58,158 nucleotides of DNA from a virus: positions 1-58,158 of the IMG/VR virus record IMGVR_UViG_3300011116_000399; one strand, given 5' to 3'. Both the position numbers and the translations under genes were made by a program. This document shows positions 875 to 44,508 of this stretch, piece after piece. A model generated the notes under the pieces. That model saw only the letters and a program-made list of their open reading frames with translations. It was not told the origin of the DNA and ran no database searches. Every line of letters begins with the position of its first letter. The stretch's first letter is position 1.

Positions 875-1681
875 TTGGCAAAACCCCGTACCCGCAAAAT
901 GGTGAATTTAGCCATTGAGGAAACGAGTGGCGTAGACCATCCAGCGCATCTACATGAGGGTTGGCTTGTAATGAAGTCAGCCTCCGAATCTGAAGTTCAG
1001 AGGGTTCTCGACAAATCGCTGACCGAGGAGGACTCCAATATGGAGGATATGAAAACTACCGAGGCAACTGAAGATAAGGTTGAAAAAACCGTTGAGGAAG
1101 AACTAGCGGCGGCGCAAGCCCGTATCGCAGAACTCGAAGCCAAACTCGCCGAAAAGGAAGAAAAACCTGAATTGGAAGTTGAAATGGCGATGGGTCAAGA
1201 CTCAAAGGAACCTAAAAAGGAAGAAGAGGACTATATGAAGTCCGCTCCTGCTCCAGTTGTTAAAATGATTGAAGACTTGAGAAAACAGGCAGAGGAGGCA
1301 ACCGCTGAATTACGCAAAGAGCGTGAAGCCCGTGCCGATGCTCAAGCCGTTGAAAAAGCAAAGGGTTGGGCTAACCTCAACTTCGATGCAGAGAAAGTTG
1401 GACCAGCGCTTCGTCGTTTGTCCGAAACTGATTCAGAGTTAGCAAAGAGCATTGAAGAAGTTCTTTCTTCAGTAAACGCTCAAGCAGAATCAGCATCTAT
1501 TTTTGCAGAAATCGGCAAATCTGCGGACTTCAAATCAGGCAATGCTTATGAGCGTATGACTACGCTTGCTAAGTCTGCCGTTGAAGAGGGTGTAGCAAAG
1601 TCATTCGCTCAGGCGATGGCTGATGTTGCGTCAAAAAACCCTGACCTTTACAGCCAATACCTATCCGAGAAAGGTGCCTAA
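875..1681 (+). CDS. capsid scaffold-like coiled-coil protein
   Basis: 268 residues, TTG start at 875 with GTTAGGAG at 861-868. The N-terminus has the phage motif VDHPAHLHEGWLVMKSA. Residues about 60-165 are highly charged and predicted coiled coil (EELAAAQARIAELEAKL). A helical C-terminal domain follows. Scaffold proteins of HK97-fold phages have this composition and sit directly before decoration and major capsid genes, as here. It probably organises procapsid assembly and is removed by the XkdF-like protease. A GC-poor gap of about 105 bases precedes it, with a possible TATTAT box near 803. Confidence 0.8.
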   Translation: MAKPRTRKMVNLAIEETSGVDHPAHLHEGWLVMKSASESEVQRVLDKSLTEEDSNMEDMKTTEATEDKVEKTVEEELAAAQARIAELEAKLAEKEEKPELEVEMAMGQDSKEPKKEEEDYMKSAPAPVVKMIEDLRKQAEEATAELRKEREARADAQAVEKAKGWANLNFDAEKVGPALRRLSETDSELAKSIEEVLSSVNAQAESASIFAEIGKSADFKSGNAYERMTTLAKSAVEEGVAKSFAQAMADVASKNPDLYSQYLSEKGA

Positions 1682-1684
1682 AAC

Positions 1685-2080
1685 ATGGCATACGAAATCT
1701 CTAACTACTCGGTAAAGGTCACCCTCGTTGCAGGTGCCGACCTTTCCAGTAAGCAATACACATTCGTCAAGTTGGATTCATCAGGACAAGCAGTTGCCGC
1801 ATCAGGCGCTACTGATATTCCAATCGGCGTACTACAAAATGCTCCAACTTCAGGACAGGAAGCAGAAGTGCTTGTTGTCGGTGGAACAAAGATTGTTGCG
1901 GGAGCGGCAATCGGCGAAGGCGCACTTGTTGGCACATCTGCAACAGGCAAGGCAGTAGCCTTGGTTGCTGGTACAGATACCACTAAGTATGTTGTTGGAA
2001 CTCTTCTGACCGAATCTGCGGCAGATGGAAACATCGTCACAGCCGTAATCAACTGCGCTAATCCAGGCAGAGCGGCATAA
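1685..2080 (+). CDS. head decoration protein (DUF2190-like)
   Basis: 131 residues. The sequence GADLSSKQYTFVKLDSSG, then IPIGVLQNAPTSGQEAEVLV and GTKIVAGAAIGEG, is the pattern of DUF2190/gpD-like capsid decoration proteins, which are small beta-rich proteins that bind the outside of the capsid lattice. It lies immediately before the major capsid gene. It starts 3 bases after the scaffold stop and has no upstream promoter of its own. Confidence 0.85.
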   Translation: MAYEISNYSVKVTLVAGADLSSKQYTFVKLDSSGQAVAASGATDIPIGVLQNAPTSGQEAEVLVVGGTKIVAGAAIGEGALVGTSATGKAVALVAGTDTTKYVVGTLLTESAADGNIVTAVINCANPGRAA

Positions 2081-2093
2081 GGGGGAAAAATAA

Positions 2094-3071
2094 ATGCCAC
2101 AGCCAAACATTAACTCCGTCCATGTGGACGCAATTCTTACAAATATCTCGGTTGCATATTTACAAAACCAAGATAACTTTATCGCTGACAAGGTATTCCC
2201 AGTAATCCCTGTCGATAAGAAGAGCGATAAATACTTTACTTACACCAAGAACGATTGGTTCCGTGACGAGGCTCAACGCCGTGCGCCTGGAACTGAATCC
2301 GCAGGTGGCGGTTACAACCTATCAACAGGAACATATTCAGCAGATGTATGGGCTTTCCATAAAGATGTTGATGACCAAACTGTTGCAAACGCAGACGCTC
2401 CTCTAAACCCTCTTCGTGAGGCAACAGAGTTCGTTACTCGTCGTTTGATGCTTCGTCGTGAACTACAATGGGTATCCGATTTCTTCGGAACTGGTGTATG
2501 GGCTGACGATGTAACAGGTGTTGCTGGCGCCCCATCTTCAGGTGAGACAAAGCAATGGTCTGATTACACTTCTTCTGACCCAATTTCAGATATTGAAAAT
2601 GGTAAGGCAGAAATCCTAGGAAACACAGGAATGGAAGCAAACACTTTGGTTCTTGGATACGATGTATTCAAGGCACTAAAGAACCACCCTGACCTAGTAG
2701 ACCGCATCAAGTACACATCTTCACAAACAATCACAACCGACATGTTAGCCGCAATGTTTGACATTCCTCGAGTTATGGTTGCTAAGGCAGTCAAGGCAAC
2801 AAACAACGAAGGTGCATCAGAGGCTTATGCCTTTGCACACGGCAAGAAGGCTCTTCTATGCCATGTTGCTCCACAGCCTGGACTACTAACCCCTTCCGCT
2901 GGATACACATTCGCATGGACTGGTGTATCAGGTGGATTAGGTGCAACAATCGGAACTTCACAGTTCCGTATGGAATCCATTAAGTCAGACCGAGTAGAAG
3001 CAGAAATCGCTTTCGATAACAAAGTTATTTCTTCTGACCTTGGCTACTTTTGGAATACCATCGTCGCTTAA
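2094..3071 (+). CDS. major capsid protein (HK97 fold, gpE-like)
   Basis: 325 residues. The N-terminal stretch (FIADKVFPVIPVDKKSDKYF) and internal segments such as LVLGYDVFKALKNHPDLVDRIKYT and the C-terminal RVEAEIAFDNKVISSDLGYFW match the family of actinophage and gpE-like major capsid proteins. GGGGGAAAA precedes the start. A strong terminator follows at once, as expected for the most heavily expressed structural gene. There is no N-terminal delta domain, so assembly relies on the separate scaffold. Confidence 0.95.
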   Translation: MPQPNINSVHVDAILTNISVAYLQNQDNFIADKVFPVIPVDKKSDKYFTYTKNDWFRDEAQRRAPGTESAGGGYNLSTGTYSADVWAFHKDVDDQTVANADAPLNPLREATEFVTRRLMLRRELQWVSDFFGTGVWADDVTGVAGAPSSGETKQWSDYTSSDPISDIENGKAEILGNTGMEANTLVLGYDVFKALKNHPDLVDRIKYTSSQTITTDMLAAMFDIPRVMVAKAVKATNNEGASEAYAFAHGKKALLCHVAPQPGLLTPSAGYTFAWTGVSGGLGATIGTSQFRMESIKSDRVEAEIAFDNKVISSDLGYFWNTIVA

Positions 3072-3081
3072 TTAGTTAAAC

Positions 3082-3125
3082 GAAGGGGGTGGGACTTTTG
3101 AAGGTCTCACTCCCTTCCTTTATTT
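3082..3125 (+). terminator. rho-independent terminator after major capsid gene
   Basis: GAAGGGGGTGGGAC (3082-3095) pairs with GTCTCACTCCCTTC (3104-3117), 14 bp with two G-U pairs and an 8-base loop, followed by a T-rich tail (CTTTATTT). It would limit readthrough from the capsid gene into the fibre block. Confidence 0.85.
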
Positions 3126-3135
3126 AGGAGAAAAA

Positions 3136-3480
3136 ATGGCATTAGTAAACAGACTTTCCAAGGGTGAAGTAGCAGTAGGCGCATTACAAGTTGGCGATAA
3201 CGACACCGTTTACGGTATCGAATTTGGAACTGTATCAATCGACCCTGCTTCAATCAACGCAACAACCCGTGGTGGAACAACCTTTACTTTGACTGGTGCG
3301 GCTACAACCGACATCATTATTGTGAATCCACCATCAGACTTAAATGATGACTTGATTTATTGTGGCGCCGCAGTTACAGCCGCAGATACAGTCACCGTTT
3401 ATCTTTACAACCCAACCGCAGGTTCAATTAACCAAGCGGCGGCAACATTCTCATATTGCTGGATTGACACAACCGCATAA
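3136..3480 (+). CDS. virion structural protein, head-fibre/decoration-like
   Basis: 114 residues, starting behind TTTAGGAG. The protein is beta-rich with few charges, ending in TVYLYNPTAGSINQAAATF and SYCWIDTTA. Short proteins of this composition after the capsid gene are common in siphoviruses and are usually annotated as head fibres or capsid accessory proteins. The assignment rests on composition and position, not on a specific motif. Confidence 0.7.
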   Translation: MALVNRLSKGEVAVGALQVGDNDTVYGIEFGTVSIDPASINATTRGGTTFTLTGAATTDIIIVNPPSDLNDDLIYCGAAVTAADTVTVYLYNPTAGSINQAAATFSYCWIDTTA

Positions 3481-3481
3481 T

Positions 3482-3688
3482 ATGAAAGCACAAATTCTTA
3501 AATCAATGATTGTTGAAGGTCGCAAACTTGTGGCTGGAGATATTGTAGAAGTCAAGGGTTGGCGTCATGCTAAGGCTTTGGCTAATAATCGCTACATCAA
3601 ATTGATTGAAGAAGATGTAGTTGAAGAAAAAGTAGCAGAGGCTCCAAAGCCAAAGGCTACAAAAAAATCAAAAGAAGTCGCTGAATAG
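3482..3688 (+). CDS. small structural-block protein with KPKATKK tail
   Basis: 68 residues starting at ATG 3482, two bases after the previous stop. Translation upstream of 3482 in this frame only shadows the previous gene. The N-terminal half (IVEGRKLVAGDIVEVKGWRHAKALANNRYIKL) resembles the short phage domain in which a residue is reached through 'GR.V..GDIVEV...A..L...'. The C-terminus is a charged linker. It shares its organisation with the gene at 14036. Confidence 0.75.
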   Translation: MKAQILKSMIVEGRKLVAGDIVEVKGWRHAKALANNRYIKLIEEDVVEEKVAEAPKPKATKKSKEVAE

Positions 3689-3691
3689 TGC

Positions 3692-3731
3692 AAAGGGCGA
3701 TTCGGTAAAATGAGTCGCCCTTTCTTTTCTT
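3692..3731 (+). terminator. rho-independent terminator
   Basis: Perfect 9-bp stem AAAGGGCGA (3692-3700) / TCGCCCTTT (3715-3723), loop of 14 bases, and a T-rich tail CTTTTCTT. It separates the head genes from the fibre cluster that begins at 3742. Confidence 0.85.
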
Positions 3732-3741
3732 AGGAGTTTAT

Positions 3742-4014
3742 ATGGCAGTATCACACCAAAGAGTTTCAGTAGGAACCACCGCTACACAATTAACATCCGA
3801 TGCGGATGGAAGAGATGGACAGACAATTAGTATTCAGGTTCCCTCAGCGGGAGCAACTGTCTATTTAGGTGGTGCAGGAGTAACAACAACAAGTTATGGT
3901 TATGAGTTGCTTGGGGGAACAAGTTTTTCTGTGGAGTTACAACAAGGAGAAAAAGTTTTTGGTGTTGTAGCCTCTAGCACACAAACTGTAAATGTATTCA
4001 GACAAGGCGCTTAA
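3742..4014 (+). CDS. virion structural protein, small beta-rich
   Basis: 90 residues, RBS TTAGGAG. The pattern VSVGTTATQLTSDADG then QVPSAGATVYLGGAGVT and GTSFSVELQQGEKVFGVV is the compact beta-barrel seen in many phage capsid/fibre accessory proteins. No catalytic residues. It opens the fibre cluster after the terminator at 3692-3731. Confidence 0.75.
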   Translation: MAVSHQRVSVGTTATQLTSDADGRDGQTISIQVPSAGATVYLGGAGVTTTSYGYELLGGTSFSVELQQGEKVFGVVASSTQTVNVFRQGA

Positions 4015-4017
4015 ATT

Positions 4018-4563
4018 ATGGCGTTACCAGCATCATTATCAACTTGCACCGTTGTGGGTACTTATGTTGATTTAGTTGGTAACCCTGTTCGTGGTTCTAT
4101 CAACTTCACACCTCAAACAATCCTCAAAGAAGTTACAGCCAATGTCATTTTAATCCCAGTTGTAATTCAAAAAACTTTTGATTCAAGTGGTTCTTTTAGT
4201 GTTGTTTTACCTGTAACAAGCGATACAGATGTAATACCCCAACCTTTTATTTACACTATTGAAGAAAACTTTACTGGTGGTAGAACTATTGAGATTGCCT
4301 TGCCTCTATCAGTCGCAGGAACCACCCAAAACCTTGCAGATTTACTCCCTGCGCTATCTTCAGCGGACGCCGCTAGTTATGTGTCAGTAGACGCTTATCA
4401 GGCTCTATTAGCCCGTTACAACGATGCTGAGAGCATCCGTGTGCTTGTGGTAGACGCCGATGAATATGTAGATGATGCCGAGGGATATGCCTCAGATGCC
4501 TCAACAGCGGCGGCTTCTCTAAGTAACTATAATTCAAATCAGTTTATGTTAATGGGAGTCTAA
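4018..4563 (+). CDS. tail/head fibre protein with Ig-like N-domain
   Basis: 181 residues. The N-terminal 100 residues (TVVGTYVDLVGNPVRGSINFTP ... FIYTIEENFTGG) form a beta-sandwich-like domain closely paralleled in the gene at 4763. The remainder is helical (YNDAESIRVLVVDADEYVDDAEG) and ends in the hydrophobic tail NQFMLMGV. This tail resembles the ends of the products of 4565, 4763 and 8676. Likely a fibre subunit, with the shared tail as a docking signal (inference). Confidence 0.75.
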   Translation: MALPASLSTCTVVGTYVDLVGNPVRGSINFTPQTILKEVTANVILIPVVIQKTFDSSGSFSVVLPVTSDTDVIPQPFIYTIEENFTGGRTIEIALPLSVAGTTQNLADLLPALSSADAASYVSVDAYQALLARYNDAESIRVLVVDADEYVDDAEGYASDASTAAASLSNYNSNQFMLMGV

Positions 4564-4564
4564 A

Positions 4565-4762
4565 GTGGCAGAGCCGTATGTACCCATAGCCGATTACACG
4601 ACCTATAACAATTTATTGATTGAACTTGAGGTTACGACAGACAGCGCTGAAACCAATGCTGATGCCCTCGACCTTGCAGTTGATAATGCTTTAGTTCATA
4701 AGCAAACGGCAGAGAACGCAGTTGCTTCTAAGTTTGATTTGTTCTTTTTGGTAGGTGCATAA
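4565..4762 (+). CDS. short fibre-like subunit
   Basis: 65 residues with GTG start one base after the previous stop. It consists almost entirely of the helical segment and hydrophobic tail (FDLFFLVGA) seen at the C-terminus of the flanking paralogues, without the Ig-like domain. It may be a shortened paralogue or an adaptor for the longer fibres. Confidence 0.65.
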   Translation: MAEPYVPIADYTTYNNLLIELEVTTDSAETNADALDLAVDNALVHKQTAENAVASKFDLFFLVGA

Positions 4763-5440
4763 ATGGCGCTCGCACCGAGTTTAACCACGGTTCAAATTAC
4801 TGGTAATTATGTAGATTTTGAGGGTAATCCAATCCAAGGTCAGGTTAGATTTACTTTAGGAGATGTAATCCGTAATGGTACTGATGACCAAATGATTGCA
4901 CCATCAAGTGTAGTTGTTGGTTTAAGTAGCGGTGCTTTTACGGTAACCCTTCCTGCTACAAATGACCCTGACACAGTTCCAATCCCTTTTACCTATACAG
5001 TTGAAGAATCATTTCCTGGGGGTCGCTCTTACACAATTTCAGTTCCTTATGACACCGTAGGCTCTTTAGATTTAGCAGATTTAAGCCCAACTCCTACATT
5101 AAGTGAAACATTCACTCAGGCTATCGACCAAACATCTTGGAACGCACTAGAGGCAGATATTGATGCCCTCGATGTTGAAATCAATCAGACAACAGACAAA
5201 ATTCTTGCTACGGGCAAGTATTGGTATATCCCTAGTACATACGCTACTTATACAGCGCTAGATACTGCGTTTGCTACCTATACCGCCTTAACCGCTGGTA
5301 CTTACAGTTTAGATGGCGCTGATATTGCCACCTTTGTAACTACGGCTCAGGGCTATGAGTCAGCGGCTTCAGCAAGTGCAACAACAGCCACAAATACTGC
5401 GACTGGTACAATCAGTCCATTACTTCTAATCGGAGGATAA
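4763..5440 (+). CDS. fibre protein, paralogue of the 4018 product
   Basis: 225 residues, start directly after the previous stop. The N-domain (VQITGNYVDFEGNPIQGQV, later IPFTYTVEESFPGGRSYTIS) aligns with the 4018 product. It is followed by helical repeats (LEADIDALDVEINQT; YATYTALDTAFATYTALTAG) and the hydrophobic C-terminus SPLLLIGG. Together with 4018 and 4565 it forms a duplicated fibre family. Confidence 0.75.
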   Translation: MALAPSLTTVQITGNYVDFEGNPIQGQVRFTLGDVIRNGTDDQMIAPSSVVVGLSSGAFTVTLPATNDPDTVPIPFTYTVEESFPGGRSYTISVPYDTVGSLDLADLSPTPTLSETFTQAIDQTSWNALEADIDALDVEINQTTDKILATGKYWYIPSTYATYTALDTAFATYTALTAGTYSLDGADIATFVTTAQGYESAASASATTATNTATGTISPLLLIGG

Positions 5441-27667: not shown

Positions 27668-27870
27668 ACTGGAGTTTAATATGGACAGTAGTTGGTTTAG
27701 CCATTGCCAGTTTTTTTATTTTGCCGATTTACATTGGTTACATAATTGCTTACAAAAAAGCAATGCTAAAAATTGAATTGGAGTTCGTTGCAACAGCGAA
27801 TCACATTCACAAAAAAGTAAAGTTTGATGATGCAGTCGAACGCCTGTTCGAAGAAGGAGAAGCGATATGA
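27664..27870 (+). CDS. small membrane protein
   Basis: 68 residues. One N-terminal membrane segment (WTVVGLAIASFFILPIYIGY) and a cytoplasmic helical tail. ATGA overlaps at both ends place it in the same transcript as rusA and the HTH gene. Function unknown. Confidence 0.7.
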   Translation: MNWSLIWTVVGLAIASFFILPIYIGYIIAYKKAMLKIELEFVATANHIHKKVKFDDAVERLFEEGEAI

Positions 27871-28166
27871 GTACAGTAATGGAAGCAACAGAGTTAGACG
27901 GTAAAGGACTAGGTGAGGTCAAACTTCTAACAGATGCGATTCGTACCCACCAGTCGCAGATTCAAGACTTAGGTAAAAGACGCAAGCAGTTGATTCTTAG
28001 ATTACGAAAACAAAGAATCACTTACCGAGAGATTGCTGAAGCCATGGGTGTATCAGAGCAGTTAATTTACAAAATTATCCGCAACGATATTGAAAGAGTT
28101 CCTGAGTACGACAACGAAGGAAACCTAATTCGTAGACGAGGACGACCAGCGAAACAATTAGCCTAA
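27867..28166 (+). CDS. HTH protein with C-terminal AT-hook
   Basis: 99 residues. A helical N-terminus is followed by a sigma-region-4-like HTH (KQRITYREIAEAMGVSEQLI, YKIIRND) and by a minor-groove AT-hook-like end (IRRRGRPAKQL). Directly upstream of, and overlapping (TAATG), the cytosine methyltransferase. It may regulate or target the modification genes. Confidence 0.75.
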   Translation: MSTVMEATELDGKGLGEVKLLTDAIRTHQSQIQDLGKRRKQLILRLRKQRITYREIAEAMGVSEQLIYKIIRNDIERVPEYDNEGNLIRRRGRPAKQLA

Positions 28167-29137
28167 TGAAGTTCATAGAACTTTTTGCAGGTATTGGAGC
28201 CTTTCGACTTGGACTTGAAAGAACGGGTCATGAGTGCGTTTGGGCTAACGAATGGTTAGAGAGACCTAGGAGTATTTATGCAAGAAACTTCGGACACCAA
28301 CCTGACGGACGAGATATTAGAAATGTTTCCGCTGGAGACATTCCTGATGCCGACCTCCTCGTTGGCGGATTCCCTTGTGCGACTTTTTCAGTTGCAGGAA
28401 AGCGAACTGGATTCTCCTTGGATGACACCCGAGGGACACTCGCTTTTGAAATGTTTAGACTCGCTCACGAAAAATCAATACCGTATATCCTCTTTGAGAA
28501 TGTCAAAGGACTCCTCAATCACGACGGAGGAAGAACATTCGAAATCATCCTCGAAGTCTTGGATGGCTTGGGGTATGACTGTCAATGGGAATTGCTTAAC
28601 AGCGAAAATTTTGGAGTCCCACAACACAGAGAACGGGTATTCCTTATCGGACATCTTAGAGGAAACCCCCGACCAAAAGTATTTCCTATCGGACGAGCAA
28701 GTAACAGAAATCTTGAGACGGACAAAACAAAACAAAATGGAAGGTCGGGGTTTTTCTCCAACATTTCTCCAACACTAGATGCTCATTATTACAAAGGTGG
28801 GAACTCACGACCTTATGTATCAGTACAGGCAGTTGTGAATCCATCAATAAAAGTAAAGAATCAAAACGGGAGGTTAATAAAAAATCATAACGAATCAAGT
28901 TTCACTTTGACTGCAACCGACATACATGGAGTTGCGTTAGATGATGGAACAAAAATAAAATTAAGAAAATTAACCCCTTTGGAGTGCGAGCGCCTTCAAG
29001 GATTACCCGATGGATGGACGGAGTTCTACGAAGATGGAAGAAGAGTTTCAGATTCCGAAAGATACGAACGATGCGGACGGACAATCACTATCCCAGTCGT
29101 GGAAGCGATTGGTAGAAAACTTCATGACTTCTACTGA
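28166..29137 (+). CDS. DNA (cytosine-5) methyltransferase-like enzyme with Arg in motif X; candidate carboxymethyltransferase
   Basis: 323 residues, close to M.HhaI in length. Motif I FAGIGAFRLGL (7-17), motif IV GGFPCATFSVAG with catalytic Cys71, motif VI ENV (111-113), motif VIII QHRERVFLIG (153-162) and motif IX KLTPLECERLQGLPDGW (268-284) are all present. Motif X should read GNSVVxxVxxxIG but here reads CGRTITIPVVEAIG, so the near-invariant Asn is Arg305 (codon CGG 29078-29080). From memory, changing the equivalent Asn374 of M.MpeI to Lys/Arg allows carboxy-SAM as cofactor. The next gene, overlapping by 14 bases, encodes a CmoA-like protein. Inference: it transfers a carboxymethyl group to cytosine. 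Ordinary methylation remains the alternative. Confidence 0.85.
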   Translation: MKFIELFAGIGAFRLGLERTGHECVWANEWLERPRSIYARNFGHQPDGRDIRNVSAGDIPDADLLVGGFPCATFSVAGKRTGFSLDDTRGTLAFEMFRLAHEKSIPYILFENVKGLLNHDGGRTFEIILEVLDGLGYDCQWELLNSENFGVPQHRERVFLIGHLRGNPRPKVFPIGRASNRNLETDKTKQNGRSGFFSNISPTLDAHYYKGGNSRPYVSVQAVVNPSIKVKNQNGRLIKNHNESSFTLTATDIHGVALDDGTKIKLRKLTPLECERLQGLPDGWTEFYEDGRRVSDSERYERCGRTITIPVVEAIGRKLHDFY

Positions 29138-29771
29138 GCCATTTTCGTTTGACACGATAAAAAACTTTGATGAGCATATCGCTCAATCAATCCCCAACTA
29201 TCAAACGCTGACTGAAGCAATCTGTGACCTGAGTACATACTTCATGACTGAAGATACCCAAGTGATTGACCTTGGTTGCTCAACTGGAAAACTTTTAGAA
29301 AGACTTCCTCACCGTGGTAGAAAAGTTGGCATCGATATAGCCGATAACCTTTTGCCTGAGTCCCATGATGAGACTTTATACATCCGCCGAGACTTAAGAG
29401 CCATAGAGAATTTTGGTAAGTCCAGTTTGATTCTTTCAATCTTCACCCTGCAATTCATTCCATACGAAGACCGACCAAACATCCTGAGTAACATCTATGA
29501 ATCTCTAGTTGAGGGTGGGGCTTTTATATGGGCTGAGAAAGTCCGAGAGGAAGACGGGGAACTAGAGCAAGCCATCAATGGCGCCTTTTTTGACTTCAAG
29601 CGTAAGGCTTTTACGCCCGAGCAGATATTAAACAAAGAGCGAGACTTGAGACCAATCATGAAAGTCAATTCATCTGTTAGGAATCAGATATTGGCTGAGA
29701 ACGCTGGCTTCACAGTTGGCACAATGTTTTGGAAGTTCTACAATTTCGAAGCGTGGATTTACATTAAATGA
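29124..29771 (+). CDS. CmoA-like carboxy-SAM synthase homologue
   Basis: 215 residues from ATG 29124, inside the end of the methyltransferase gene; upstream in-frame codons shadow that gene. It follows E. coli CmoA along its length: FSFDTIKNFDEHIAQSIPNY, QVIDLGCSTGKLL (SAM site), FTLQFIP, GGAFIWAEKV, FFDFKRKAFTPEQIL and FWKFYNF. CmoA converts SAM plus prephenate to carboxy-SAM. E. coli Arg199, which binds the cofactor carboxylate, aligns to Glu172 with Arg173 next to it, so the key contact may be shifted by one. CmoA normally serves tRNA wobble-uridine modification with CmoB; no CmoB is seen here, but a C5-methyltransferase is adjacent. Confidence 0.8.
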   Translation: MTSTEPFSFDTIKNFDEHIAQSIPNYQTLTEAICDLSTYFMTEDTQVIDLGCSTGKLLERLPHRGRKVGIDIADNLLPESHDETLYIRRDLRAIENFGKSSLILSIFTLQFIPYEDRPNILSNIYESLVEGGAFIWAEKVREEDGELEQAINGAFFDFKRKAFTPEQILNKERDLRPIMKVNSSVRNQILAENAGFTVGTMFWKFYNFEAWIYIK

Positions 29772-30955
29772 AAGCGAAGATAAAAGTTGGTCAAGTTGCT
29801 TCAGTTGCTATCTCATCCCTTGAGGCGTACCCGACAAATCCTCGTCGTGGCGATATTGAAGCGATTGCTCAGTCACTCAAAGCCCATGGGCAGTACAGAC
29901 CGATTGTTGTTCAGATTGGTTCGAATTTTATCTTGGCAGGGAATCACACCTACAAAGCGGCAAAGAAACTTGGCTGGAAGAAAATCAAAATAACCTATGT
30001 CGATGTAGATGAAGAGAGCGCTCGCAAGATTGTCTTGGCTGATAATCGCATGACCGACCTTGCGACCTATAACGAACCTCTATTGAAATCTTTACTCTCA
30101 GCCCTACCTGAGTTAGAAGGAACAGGGTTCACTAAAGCCGAGGTTGAGATTTTAGATAGGTTAAGTAAGGGCGATGACAAAACTAGCGTTGGAGATTCTA
30201 AGTCTTTACCTAGCGACCCTGAAGTAAAGATTAGCGCTTGGAAGTTTACAGTTGAGATGGATGCCTATAAAGCGTGGAAAGAACAACTCTACATAGATGC
30301 ACCGACAAAACAGAAAGCCATCCGAGCCATCAAAGACAGATTAGGACTACCTGAACCCAAGCCAGTTAAACCTGAACCTGAGGGTGAGCGTTCTGAGATT
30401 GAGGTAAGCGATGTTGAGACAGTTGGCATCAACGAGATTAAAGTCCATCCGCTAAATCCTAGAGAGGGCGATATAGGCTCAATCATTCAGTCCCTTGAGG
30501 TAATGGGTCAGTATCGACCTATCGTGGTCAATAAAACTACTAAACACATCCTTTCAGGAAATCACACATATCAAGCGGCGGTTCAGTTAGGATGGGAAAA
30601 GATTGCAGTTCATTGGGTCGATGTCGATGATGTTGAGGAGATAAAAATTCTTATTGTCGATAACCGAACCTCTGACCTAGCAACTTATGACCCACAGGAA
30701 CTAAATAAACTTCTGACGACAACTGGCTTGCGGGGAACAGGCTTTAGTCCCGAAGAGGTTGCCGAAATCTTGGGTGGGGGAAAATCCAAGCCTGGGCATA
30801 TTCCTGTGGGTCGTACAACAATTCGGGTTGGCGAACACACTATGAGAGTTCATACCGAAGACCTAAATGAATGGGCTAACACCATAAATGGCTGGAAAGA
30901 TATTGCCGAGTTATTATTTATTCCTATTGAGGCATGTACAACCGAGGTAGAATAA
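29768..30955 (+). CDS. double ParB/Srx-like domain protein
   Basis: 395 residues, ATGA overlap with the CmoA-like gene. Two ParB N-terminal-type domains in tandem: residues about 12-135 (YPTNPRRGDIEAIAQSLKAH, LAGNHTYKAAKKLGW) and about 215-330 (HPLNPREGDIGSIIQSLEVM, LSGNHTYQAAVQLGW). Both have GNHT where chromosomal ParB has GERR. The two repeats are more like each other than like ParB. Such proteins are frequent next to phage DNA methylases; nuclease, CTP-binding or DNA-marking roles are possible. Confidence 0.8.
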   Translation: MKAKIKVGQVASVAISSLEAYPTNPRRGDIEAIAQSLKAHGQYRPIVVQIGSNFILAGNHTYKAAKKLGWKKIKITYVDVDEESARKIVLADNRMTDLATYNEPLLKSLLSALPELEGTGFTKAEVEILDRLSKGDDKTSVGDSKSLPSDPEVKISAWKFTVEMDAYKAWKEQLYIDAPTKQKAIRAIKDRLGLPEPKPVKPEPEGERSEIEVSDVETVGINEIKVHPLNPREGDIGSIIQSLEVMGQYRPIVVNKTTKHILSGNHTYQAAVQLGWEKIAVHWVDVDDVEEIKILIVDNRTSDLATYDPQELNKLLTTTGLRGTGFSPEEVAEILGGGKSKPGHIPVGRTTIRVGEHTMRVHTEDLNEWANTINGWKDIAELLFIPIEACTTEVE

Positions 30956-37221: not shown

Positions 37222-37785
37222 CTACTTTTTAGTTTTAGTTGCAACCTTCTGTCGTTTTTGTTGAGTATGAAAAATAAAAGGTGGAGATGTGTAGGCATCA
37301 TTCTCTGATGCAATCTTCAACGCTTCTCGCATAGTTGCGCCAGCGCTGAGTGCGCCGATTGCTATATCAGAACCCGAACCTACTCCGTAGTAACCTTTGC
37401 CATCCATTGACACGGAGAAGTCATCTGCAATTTCAAATATCTCTCCACCAATTAGAATCAGAAAACCAAAGCGACTCTCATCATCATCATAATCCCATTT
37501 ATATTCGTTTTCTTTGAAACAAACCTTGAGAGATGGAACTACTTTAGAAATCATGAAGTGATAAAGATTGTTCCAGTCCTTGCCAGTTGGCATCGGCGGA
37601 TTCCAAATATGTTGGGCAATATCGCAAGGCGCACATTCACCAGCGCCAGCAATAATAAAATCGCCACGCTGATTTATTTTTACCATCTGAGAGTGAATTG
37701 CTTTACGACCCGTGCTTCCAGTTGTTTGTGAGTCCGCACCAATTACTGCCTTGTCATCGTATTGAACAGCAATAATTGTTGTCAT
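37222..37785 (-). CDS. HslV/proteasome-beta-like Ntn peptidase
   Basis: 187 residues. Start MTTIIAVQYDDKAVIGADSQ places Thr2/Thr3 at the N-terminus after Met removal. GADSQTT and QMVKINQRGDFIIAGAG correspond to Asp17 and Lys33 of HslV. YYGVGSGSDIAIGALSAGAT, then REALKIASENDAYTSPP, matches the helix after the active site. HslV and proteasome subunits degrade proteins as rings with ATPases. No ATPase is encoded here, so it may form a homo-oligomer, interact with host proteasome/Mpa, or act as a decoy. The charged C-terminus QKRQKVATKTKK is an addition. Confidence 0.8.
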   Translation of the reverse strand: MTTIIAVQYDDKAVIGADSQTTGSTGRKAIHSQMVKINQRGDFIIAGAGECAPCDIAQHIWNPPMPTGKDWNNLYHFMISKVVPSLKVCFKENEYKWDYDDDESRFGFLILIGGEIFEIADDFSVSMDGKGYYGVGSGSDIAIGALSAGATMREALKIASENDAYTSPPFIFHTQQKRQKVATKTKK

Positions 37786-37829: not shown

Positions 37830-38753
37830 CTAGGGTTTTACAACCTCGGTAGGCACAGCCATGAGTCCGAGCGCAACCGTCGCCCATAGGTCAGGGGTTT
37901 CCGTATCGGGCTGGTATCCACCCGCTCCACCTAGAAGGATTGGATGCTCGGGGAACTGCTCTCTAATCAGGCGCATAGCCTTGAAATAGCCATCCTTGGT
38001 GTATTGCAAGGATGAGAGTGGGTCATTGGCTAGACCATCGGCTCCACACGCTACGAAAATCATCGTAGGCTGGAACTCGTTGCAAGCCTCGAGGAATCCC
38101 TCAGTAGCAGATAACAATTCTGCATCGCCTGACTTTGATGCAAGCGGGAAGTTATAGGCAAGATGTTTCCAATCGCTAATCAATCCCGTGCCTGGAAAAA
38201 TCCCATACTCATGAACTGAGTAAGTTAGAACATTTTTGTTCTTCTTTAACAGCATTTCAGTACCGTCACCATGGTGAGCATCGCAATCAAAGATAGCGAC
38301 CCTATGGTCATAATCTTGAGTTGCTCTAGTTGCGGCAATAGCAAAATCATTGAACACACAAAAACCGCTTGAGTAGTCACGCATTGCGTGATGCTTTGCA
38401 CCAGCAAAGTGAACAGCCAATTTAGTTTTGTAATCAATCAAAGCATCGAGAGCAGTCAAAGTACCGCCAGCAAACAACTTGGCTAAATCACCTAGGTCGT
38501 GGCGTTGTCCCATCCATTCACTTGATTCACCTCGGACAGTTACATCGAAAACATACTCCATGTCATGAACTAGATGCAGGTCATCAGTAGATGGCATCTC
38601 AGGTTCAATCTCCCAAACATTTAATCTACGGTCTTGCGCTCGCAACATAAGTTGATTACGAGCATGGAGAAACCTCCGCCCCTGAGTTGGGTGCGTCTTG
38701 TCAAAAACCCAATTCGCATACTCAGGCGAATGAACTAATACTGCATGTTCCAT
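37830..38753 (-). CDS. histone-deacetylase/AcuC-family deacetylase
   Basis: 307 residues from the second Met (38753); the upstream ATG overlaps the -10/RBS (TATTATGAGAGGAG). Motifs: AGAKHHAMRDYSSGFCVFND (catalytic His pair), IFDCDAHHGDGTEMLL (zinc ligands D-x-H), ACGADGLANDPLSSL (third ligand), LLGGAGGY. This is the class I HDAC/AcuC/acetylpolyamine amidohydrolase fold. Phage copies are unusual. Possible substrates: acetylated host proteins, acetylpolyamines or an acetylated base. Expressed from an early-type promoter. Confidence 0.9.
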   Translation of the reverse strand: MEHAVLVHSPEYANWVFDKTHPTQGRRFLHARNQLMLRAQDRRLNVWEIEPEMPSTDDLHLVHDMEYVFDVTVRGESSEWMGQRHDLGDLAKLFAGGTLTALDALIDYKTKLAVHFAGAKHHAMRDYSSGFCVFNDFAIAATRATQDYDHRVAIFDCDAHHGDGTEMLLKKNKNVLTYSVHEYGIFPGTGLISDWKHLAYNFPLASKSGDAELLSATEGFLEACNEFQPTMIFVACGADGLANDPLSSLQYTKDGYFKAMRLIREQFPEHPILLGGAGGYQPDTETPDLWATVALGLMAVPTEVVKP

Positions 38754-38766
38754 AGTTTCTCCTCTC

Positions 38767-38784
38767 ATAATATAAACCCCAGTT
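38767..38784 (-). promoter_or_regulatory. promoter with AACTGGGGTT element
   Basis: Minus strand AACTGGGGTT (38784-38775) directly followed by TATATTAT (38774-38767) and GAGAGGAG, driving the deacetylase gene. The element is in the reverse orientation relative to 35155. Confidence 0.75.
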
Positions 38785-42195: not shown

Positions 42196-42310
42196 TCAAA
42201 ATAGCGTAGCCAACAATTCCTTTTGCAACACCATCAAGAACAATCCAAGCAACAAACATTCCTAAGAGTGTCCAAAGTTGTCCTATGATGTCATTAAAAA
42301 ATGCTTTCAA
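42143..42310 (-). CDS. small membrane protein, TTG start
   Basis: 55 residues from TTG 42310, overlapping the stop of the lectin gene (TTGA, the same coupling as at 39059). Two hydrophobic stretches: [19 protein letters not shown] and [18 protein letters not shown]. Overlaps the 3' end of 41899. Perhaps a membrane partner of the lectin stalk. Confidence 0.65.
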
Positions 42311-44508
42311 GGTTTTCTCCTATATCCGACGCTTCCAATGGAAGCAGTCACTATTGCGTTGCTGGCGATATTGCCAACAATCGTTGCGGCAACAATCGTC
42401 TTAGTTGCCTCATCTCTTTCTTCTTCTGACATATCTGCTCCGAGATTTCCAAGAGCAAAAATAAGTTGAGCAGGACTCTCAAATATCGCTTGCAGAATTT
42501 CTGCTGGAGATTCAAGAAGTTGAAGAGCATCAGCAACAACGGCAGTAATTATGACAGCATTGCCATTTTCATCTTCTCTGACCTCAACAGGTGTAGCAGG
42601 TGGAAGGTCGGCTAAAGTAATTCCTGCTTCAGCAATAGCCTCAACAGTTACCGCTTCTCCTGCAAAAGATTCAATCAAAGCCTCGGCTACAAGTTCTTTT
42701 TCTGATTCTGTAAAGGTTCCATCCTCACTTAATTGTTCGGAAAGATTATTGACTTCATCTTGAGTAATTTCTCCATCCGCCGATAGTGCGTCGATTATCT
42801 CTTCGGCATCAGCGGGTGTAATATCGCCACCATCTAAAATGTCGGAGAGTATTTCTTCAACAATCTCGGAGGTGTCTAATGATTCAGAAGGTTGTTCTGT
42901 CGGCTCTAATTCTTCTTGGGGCGTGGCTTCTTCTTCATTTGATTCAGAAGTAGGTTCATCTAATGGTGGTTGTTCAGGTGTTTGATTTGTCGGGTCAGAT
43001 TCCTCTTGGTTTTCGGAAGGTTCATCCTGAGGTTCTTCGGAAGGCTGAGGAGTTGGCTCAGGCTCGGGGGTCGGTTGAGGTTCAGGGGTCGGTTCGGGTG
43101 TCACTTCAGGACTTGGACTTGGCTGAGGTTCAGGGGACGGAGTGGGAGTGGGTTGAGGCTGTGGGTCGGGAGTCGGCGTTACCGAAGGGGTATCGATTGG
43201 ACTCGGAGCAGGGCTTGGTACAGGATTTGGTTCAGGTGACTGAGATGGAATTGGGGTAGGCGATGGCGAAGGTGTGGGTTCAGTTGTGGACGGCGAAGGT
43301 TGCGGGGTCGGTTCAGGTTGAGGAGTCGGAGTTACGACAGGTTCAGGGCTTGGAGTCGGCGAAGGCGTTGGTTCCGATGTTGGTTGAGATTCGGGAGAAG
43401 GAGTGGGAGATGTTGCCGACGGTGTTGGTGAAGGAGTCACCGTTGGTTCAGGTGTCGGACTTGGAGAAGGCTGAGGAGTTGCTTGAGGTGTTGGAGCCGT
43501 GGCGGGATTAGCGTCGCCATATTCAAGAATTACTTCTAAGCGTTTAACAATTCCACCACAAGGGTCACCAAAGATTTGATTGATTGCTTGAATGACAGCA
43601 TTGTTTTTTCCAAGAAAAATTTCGGAAACTTTTGCTACTGAGTTAGCCGCATGGCATTGAGCATTGATTACATAATTTTCAGGAAGTCCATAACTAGCAA
43701 AAATTACATTTGTAAAAATCTTTCCGATTGGTGCAATTAAATTTAAGGAGCCACCTTCACCTACCGTACCATTTACCTGATTAGAAGGAGTAGTCGATGG
43801 AGTGGTTGTTGCTGTTGGGCTTTCTGATGGGATGGGTTGTGGGCTTGATTCAGGGGTCGGCTCAGGAGAAGAGGTTGGCTCAGGAGTTAAAGTGGGCGAA
43901 GGCGAAGGCTCGGGTGTTGGAGTTGGACTTGGCTCGCTGGTCGGAGAAGAACTCGAAGTGGGCGAAGGAGATGGTTGAACAGTTGAAGTCTCGGACGGAG
44001 ATGGAGAAGTCGTTGCAGTCGGAGTATCAGATGTCGGAGTCGGCGAAGGCTCAGGCGTTATCGAAGGGGTGGGCGTGGGTGTTGGGGCAGGAGAACTCAC
44101 CGAGACAGTAAAGATTGGTCCGTACCATCCAGCCCAAAATCCATTATCGATACCCGAAACATTGATAACAGTTTGACCCGAGGAAACAACACTTACAGAA
44201 GTTGCTTCGATTGAATTACCGCTAAAACTTTGACCGTTGATTGAAACGCTCCAACTATCAGCAATAGGAGTACAACTACCAATACAGTTGGCGATGGTGT
44301 TATTGATTGAGACGGTGACAGTTGAACCGTCGGCGACATTGATTCGATTATTAGCGCTACCGCCTCGATAGTCGAATTGGATTGAGTCGCCCGAGATATT
44401 GCCATTTACCACCTGTTGCCAAGTACCGTCGGCGCTTGCCGAGTCGGTAGGCAAAATCGTCCACCAAAAGGCGAGGCTACAAATTAGGAAAATACGCCAA
44501 ATACGCAG
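42307..44508 (-). CDS. secreted, membrane-anchored SUEL-lectin-like stalk protein, CTG start
   Basis: 733 residues if started at CTG 44508; a TTG at 44454 would remove the signal peptide. In favour of CTG: TAGGAG seven bases upstream and the resulting leader [18 protein letters not shown] followed by [10 protein letters not shown], a clear signal peptide with an A-x-A site. Then a beta domain (to about 140), a Pro/Thr/Ser linker, and a SUEL/galactose-lectin-like domain (about 245-335; [38 protein letters not shown]). A second linker of PTPEPSP type (about 340-510) and acidic DGxIT repeats ([20 protein letters not shown]) follow. The C-terminal hydrophobic stretch ([18 protein letters not shown]) with YRRKP anchors it. 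Role: perhaps altering the host surface or blocking superinfection. Confidence 0.75.

Follow-up and report, generated by a model that had tools for sequence, protein, structure and literature searches.

The DNA analysed here, called the window in the following, is the whole IMG/VR virus record IMGVR_UViG_3300011116_000399 with a length of 58,158 bases. It encodes a homologue of the DNA cytosine C5-methyltransferases (MTases) that carries an arginine at a motif X position where asparagine is nearly invariant, and the next gene encodes a protein similar to the carboxy-SAM synthase CmoA. The locus raises the question whether this enzyme carboxymethylates DNA where its homologues methylate it, and whether the phage supplies the cofactor itself. 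The engineered M.MpeI variant N374K is reportedly a carboxy-SAM user. A natural system of this kind is already published. In Synechococcus phage S-B43, CmoA makes carboxy-SAM (Cx-SAM) with a kcat of 2.33 per s, the C5-MTase homologue CmoX produces 5-carboxymethylcytosine (5cxmC) in GC motifs, and CmoY couples glycine to this base, resulting in an amide (Yang et al., Nat Commun, Dec 2025; PMC12783734). The crystal structure 8YF3 places Arg350 of this CmoX (SpCmoX) where M.HhaI has Asn304, in contact with the carboxymethyl group of Cx-SAM; the wild type accepts Cx-SAM only and the R350N variant accepts neither cofactor (PMC12783734). The same work lists 5,615 CmoX candidates, all of which were required to carry SPPC plus R350, and mentions ParBc-domain neighbours of CmoX without a function (PMC12783734). 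The initial annotation of the window had treated its arginine as the first natural case of the laboratory change, a view that is outdated since the CmoA/CmoX system of S-B43 has been described. What is new here is a second lineage of HhaI type, its separate origin as indicated by phylogeny, a signature of several residues and no recognisable CmoY.

Results

The MTase gene (28166..29137, + strand) encodes a putative CmoX-like DNA cytosine C5-carboxymethyltransferase of 323 aa, assigned to the HhaI-type GFPC lineage by profile matches, alignment and tree. As a C5-cytosine methyltransferase it is recognised by PF00145 (E 9e-72) and TIGR00675 (259.6 bits). Directly upstream lies the gene of a small HTH protein of 99 aa (27867..28166, + strand), similar ORFs of which are present in 69 loci of the family described below, and downstream follow the CmoA-like carboxy-SAM synthase of 215 aa (29124..29771, + strand, start ATG at 29124) and a tandem ParB-domain protein (29768..30955, + strand). 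These four genes overlap by 1, 14 and 4 nt, respectively, which suggests an operon-like arrangement. Elsewhere in the window, a histone-deacetylase-family protein (37830-38768, - strand; PF00850, E 9e-58) is encoded next to a HslV/proteasome-like protein (phrog_1040; 37222-37785, - strand), and ORFs similar to these are found in 16 and 18 family loci, respectively. The large product of 42307-44454 (- strand) shows weak similarity to a SUEL-type lectin domain (E 9e-7, below the cut-off) and is perhaps a receptor-binding protein.

The catalytic residues of a C5-MTase are in place. Alignment identifies, all on the + strand, the GFPC motif IV with the catalytic Cys71, which aligns with HhaI Cys81 and is followed by Ala72 at the place of M.HhaI Gln82 (28376..28381), motif VI with Glu111-Asn112-Val113 (28496..28504) and motif VIII with QHRER at residues 153-157 (28622..28636). 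C71, E111, R155 and R157, i.e. the catalytic cysteine, the ENV glutamate and RxR, are invariant in the alignment. Motif X, YERCGRTITIPVVEAIG, spans residues Y300 to G316 (29063..29113, + strand). Within it, the codons TGC GGA CGG ACA at 29072-29083 encode C303-G304-R305-T306, and the CGG codon at 29078..29080 (+ strand) puts Arg305 in the column of M.HhaI Asn304 and SpCmoX Arg350 by alignment and motif (PMC12783734). The replacement of the near-invariant asparagine, as read in the initial annotation, is thus confirmed. An AlphaFold2 model of the enzyme, calculated from 35 sequences and without ligand, has a mean pLDDT of 72.9, with about 90 at motif X and less than 50 for residues 178-252. Its fold matches M.HhaI (Z 27.9, rmsd 3.3 over 245 residues), CmoX in 8YF3 (Z 22.4, rmsd 3.3 over 250 residues) and M.MpeI (Z 21.5). 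Judged from alignment and fold, Arg305 would face the cofactor. The region of low pLDDT falls into a variable target-recognition stretch at residues 166-262 (28661..28951, + strand), which is also marked by its length variation. Measured over residues 166-266, it ranges in length from 98 to 143 residues across the family, whereas the catalytic parts show more than 90% conservation, suggesting that the target sequences differ.

Scanning viral contigs with the window MTase returned 80 relatives, 79 of which are readable at the Asn304 site, one being cut off. All 79, from other IMG/VR contigs and with 64-90% identity, carry R within an unchanging RYERCGRT, and therefore Arg305 is not a local sequence error. 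A CmoA-like ORF lies directly downstream of the MTase in 78 of the 80 loci; the two remaining loci are truncated, with a contig end 15 bases past the MTase in L078 and within the MTase itself in L081. The same family was returned by an independent scan with the window CmoA, again with R in every family MTase that was recognised. A set of SPPC-type MTases was gathered by searching with aligned CmoA proteins of phages, headed by that of S-B43, and those adjoining CmoA have R in 71/71 readable cases. Because this set was found via CmoA, the association of Arg with CmoA is there partly a matter of selection, whereas the family of the window had been retrieved with the MTase as query. Among MTases without CmoA nearby, N is present in 74/74 readable HhaI-type enzymes from viral contigs and in 84/84 readable enzymes from bacterial genome contigs, and in 20 whole genomes the C5-MTases, GPPC and further types among them, show N 67 times and S, E and D once each, and neither R nor K. 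Arg305 is consequently not a common variant, as the approximately 230 sampled C5-MTases that lack a CmoA neighbour carry N apart from these single S, E and D residues, all in bacterial copies. The initial annotation had expected Arg to track CmoA neighbours, which came out as predicted in the viral survey, and it had named a wide occurrence of Arg in SAM-only enzymes as the observation that would speak against its reading; the count of R or K is 0/~230. The relatives form one clade, so that the 79 arginines represent few independent events and the real independence is that of two lineages.

The converse pairing is not strict. In Staphylococcus phages, CmoA is located beside a GSPC-type C5-MTase that has Gly at the Asn304 site and keeps Gln82 (L084 7488-8495 and L085 6660-7658, both with VVGGV), hence a CmoA neighbour is not always paired with Arg. 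In Erwinia phage Y3 (L086 5935-8526) CmoA is followed by an asparagine synthase and no C5-MTase adjoins; PF00145 matches occur only about 17 kb beyond this pair, within a frame of 742 aa. In five loci (L159, L160, L161, L179 and L180) a single CmoA adjoins a pair of neighbouring Arg-type SPPC MTases, which differ perhaps in their target sequence.

Arg305 is not the whole change. Q82 and N304 of M.HhaI are cofactor-pocket positions that have been shortened by engineering to accept larger cofactors (PMC10666283). At the Gln82 site, directly after the catalytic cysteine, 223 of 228 Asn-type enzymes have Q, all 80 MTases of the window family have A and 72 of 73 SPPC CmoX have S. Immediately ahead of x-G-N, Asn-type enzymes mostly show the pair K-Q, in place of which all members of both Arg lineages have E-R. 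With Arg305 and Ala72 the window MTase lacks both the motif X Asn and the motif IV Gln that are typical of SAM enzymes, and for HhaI Tyr254 the window family has no alignable equivalent. That two lineages changed in parallel at several sites is, in our view, the strongest evidence here for the predicted use of carboxy-SAM. Glu301-Arg302 probably tune the cofactor pocket.

Motif IV reads GFPC in all members of the window family, as in HhaI, and the SPPC on which the published CmoX filter is based is absent. The filter would therefore miss this family, which has GFPC and lies inside the HhaI branch, and we describe the window MTase as CmoX-like in its working and assign it to a distinct lineage outside the SPPC set. 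A maximum-likelihood tree places the family within the HhaI-type branch among Asn enzymes and the SPPC CmoX elsewhere, and the tree calculated with the motif X columns removed requires at least two changes to R. A single clade of all R enzymes was rejected (delta lnL 56, AU p = 0.0028, motif X columns removed). The case for a separate origin is strong, yet not final, because the trees were built by a quick method and the SPPC enzymes sit on a long branch. These sequence comparisons indicate that a switch to carboxy-SAM would have taken place on at least two occasions, at the same residues as those altered in the laboratory. A further GFPC-Arg MTase is encoded on the IMG/VR contig 3300007767_000004 (L414), where 1608-5011 contain, in this order, CmoA, a CmoY-like ligase, the GFPC-Arg MTase (3143-3988) and a Gly-type MTase (GSPC, Gly at the Asn304 site). 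Like the window family, the GFPC-Arg enzyme has GFPC, Arg in motif X (here YERAGRT) and CmoA nearby, and it groups with the family, although the support (SH-aLRT 88) is not decisive. In contrast to the family, it has Phe at the Q82 site, shares only 46-50% identity and stands alongside CmoY and the Gly-type MTase. Thus, CmoY can also accompany an enzyme of the GFPC-Arg type.

The window CmoA matches the CmoA structures 1im8, 4iwn and 4gek (E 2e-21 to 1e-16) and is 39% identical to SpCmoA. Its score of 98.1 bits lies below the NCBIfam equivalog cut-off of TIGR00740 (193.3); however, the biochemically active SpCmoA scores only 115.6, so that this cut-off excludes active phage CmoA. The SAM-binding residues Tyr39, Asp62, Gly64, Ser66, Asp89 and Asp117 are kept as Y26, D49, G51, S53, D71 and D90. 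In E. coli CmoA, Arg199 forms a salt bridge with the carboxylate (PMC3663124). The corresponding site is Glu172 in the window protein, and Arg176 (29649..29651, + strand) follows four residues on, one helix turn away (alignment; PMC3663124). The E. coli sequence in this residue alignment was entered by hand and agrees with the 4gek alignment. The swapped Glu/Arg arrangement is common to the active SpCmoA and nearly all CmoA of the family, and, judged from the alignment, Arg176 may form the carboxylate salt bridge. The CmoA of one Arg-type locus (L073 7115-7759) has KELSLEG and neither the E. coli Arg199 nor the phage-type Arg.

Discussion

The direct basis of this study is sequence, conservation, gene linkage and the tree, and it is from these that we infer cofactor, product and biological role of the window enzyme. 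The best explanation, to which we assign a probability of roughly 0.87, is that the window MTase is a DNA carboxymethyltransferase that uses carboxy-SAM from the phage CmoA. The phage CmoA (29124-29771) would make carboxy-SAM from host SAM and prephenate and pass it to the C5-methyltransferase homologue (28166-29137). The latter would flip out a cytosine, Cys71 would attack C6 and the carboxymethyl group would be moved to C5, yielding 5-carboxymethylcytosine, which would probably conceal the DNA of the phage from restriction by the host. The extra carboxylate would be held by Arg305, and Ala72, the counterpart of Gln in SAM enzymes, would give room. The initial proposal that Arg305 marks the use of a cofactor supplied by CmoA is supported, by the tracking of CmoA and by the CmoX structure; what has to be given up is the idea of a natural first and of arginine as the entire change.

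The window MTase shares with SpCmoX of S-B43 the C5-MTase fold, the catalytic cysteine, the Arg in E-R-x-G-R, a small residue at the Q82 site and the CmoA neighbour. Differences are GFPC instead of SPPC, Ala instead of Ser at the Q82 site, the separate tree branch, an identity of about 25% in the structural alignment and the gene neighbourhood, in that CmoY adjoins SpCmoX and none was found in the window family. The closest fold (Z 27.9) and branch are those of M.HhaI and HhaI-type phage MTases, which also have GFPC, with identities of about 36% to HhaI and 42-47% to the phage relatives. Compared to M.HhaI, Asn304 is replaced by Arg, Gln82 by Ala and the Lys-Gln before x-G304 by Glu-Arg, the catalytic loop contains a two-residue insertion (GFSLDDTRG) and CmoA is a neighbour. 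The pocket positions altered in the window MTase are those altered in engineered M.MpeI N374K and M.HhaI Q82A/N304A, the motif X Asn in both and the motif IV Gln in M.HhaI. Unlike these variants, the window enzyme is natural, has Arg instead of Lys or Ala and comes with its own cofactor synthase alongside.

Whether the modification ends with 5-carboxymethylcytosine is a separate matter. The base could be an intermediate that is coupled to an amine by an enzyme of phage or host that has escaped recognition, the tandem ParB protein being a possible candidate. We consider this possible, albeit the less probable course, and it adds a step to the best explanation and does not replace it. In favour of such a step, CmoY of S-B43 makes a glycine amide (PMC12783734) and CmoY adjoins the GFPC-Arg enzyme of L414. 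However, none of the 15 family records examined, which measure 29-71 kb and are possibly incomplete, gave a match to the Asn_synthase domain (PF00733, CmoY), and Pfam scans of most window proteins show none either. Thus, 5-carboxymethylcytosine may be the final base in the family. Amidoligase_2 together with GATase_6 was considered as a replacement of CmoY and rejected, as the pair is present in only 2 of 16 records and is also annotated in Arthrobacter phages; L077 (6180-7861) and the L079 record contain Amidoligase_2 and class II glutamine amidotransferase genes. The ParB protein (29768-30955) is free-standing, with two ParB domains and a GNHT motif in each. It is a tempting partner for hypermodification since it overlaps CmoA and is conserved, and some ParB-fold proteins are ATP-dependent enzymes (PMC12704722). 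However, the same tandem ParB is carried by the Arthrobacter phages Laroye, Ottawa and Kovu, upstream of their terminase genes (terminase 51-53% identical), and no Arthrobacter phage is among the matches of our CmoA searches of the phage collection. The tandem ParB is therefore a backbone gene and probably outside the system. Adding to this notion, L077 and L079 have CmoX-CmoA without tandem ParB.

The window MTase might instead be an ordinary or dual-use SAM-dependent enzyme with Arg305 as a neutral marker of the lineage, and CmoA might serve tRNA modification or SAM depletion. Fold and catalytic motifs are indeed the same as in M.HhaI, and CmoA depletes SAM in principle. We nevertheless hold this to be very unlikely, because two separate lineages, both beside CmoA, changed the same sites to Arg, a small residue and Glu-Arg, SpCmoX with R350 accepts Cx-SAM only (PMC12783734), and the window of 58,158 bases contains no tRNA gene. 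Likewise very unlikely is a gain of the family's motif X by recombination from SPPC CmoX instead of an independent change, since, despite the common E-R-x-G-R, the motif X flanks follow their own lineage (TITIPVVEAIG of HhaI type here versus MVPPLMMKAIA of SPPC/GPPC type in SPPC CmoX), which argues against a swapped motif, and the distant Gln82 of motif IV is changed to Ala in the window family versus Ser in SPPC CmoX.

Returning to the DNA carboxymethyltransferase reading, we think it reasonably probable that phages gained carboxy-SAM use on at least two occasions through one and the same set of substitutions, and that the HhaI-type lineage, overlooked by the SPPC filter, either leaves 5-carboxymethylcytosine finished or completes it via an unrecognised enzyme. 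The carboxymethylcytosine system would thereby be extended to a second enzyme lineage that is well represented in IMG/VR contigs. The family would be a natural replicate of the laboratory experiment, in which evolution altered the same two pocket residues as engineers did in M.HhaI and M.MpeI, and the two further changed residues could be tried in engineering. The resulting four-residue signature may help to find carboxymethyltransferases outside the SPPC set, and the enzyme itself would offer a compact HhaI-like scaffold for DNA labelling. Given that 5-carboxymethylcytosine is maybe the end product in this family, its effect on restriction would be testable here without the amide.
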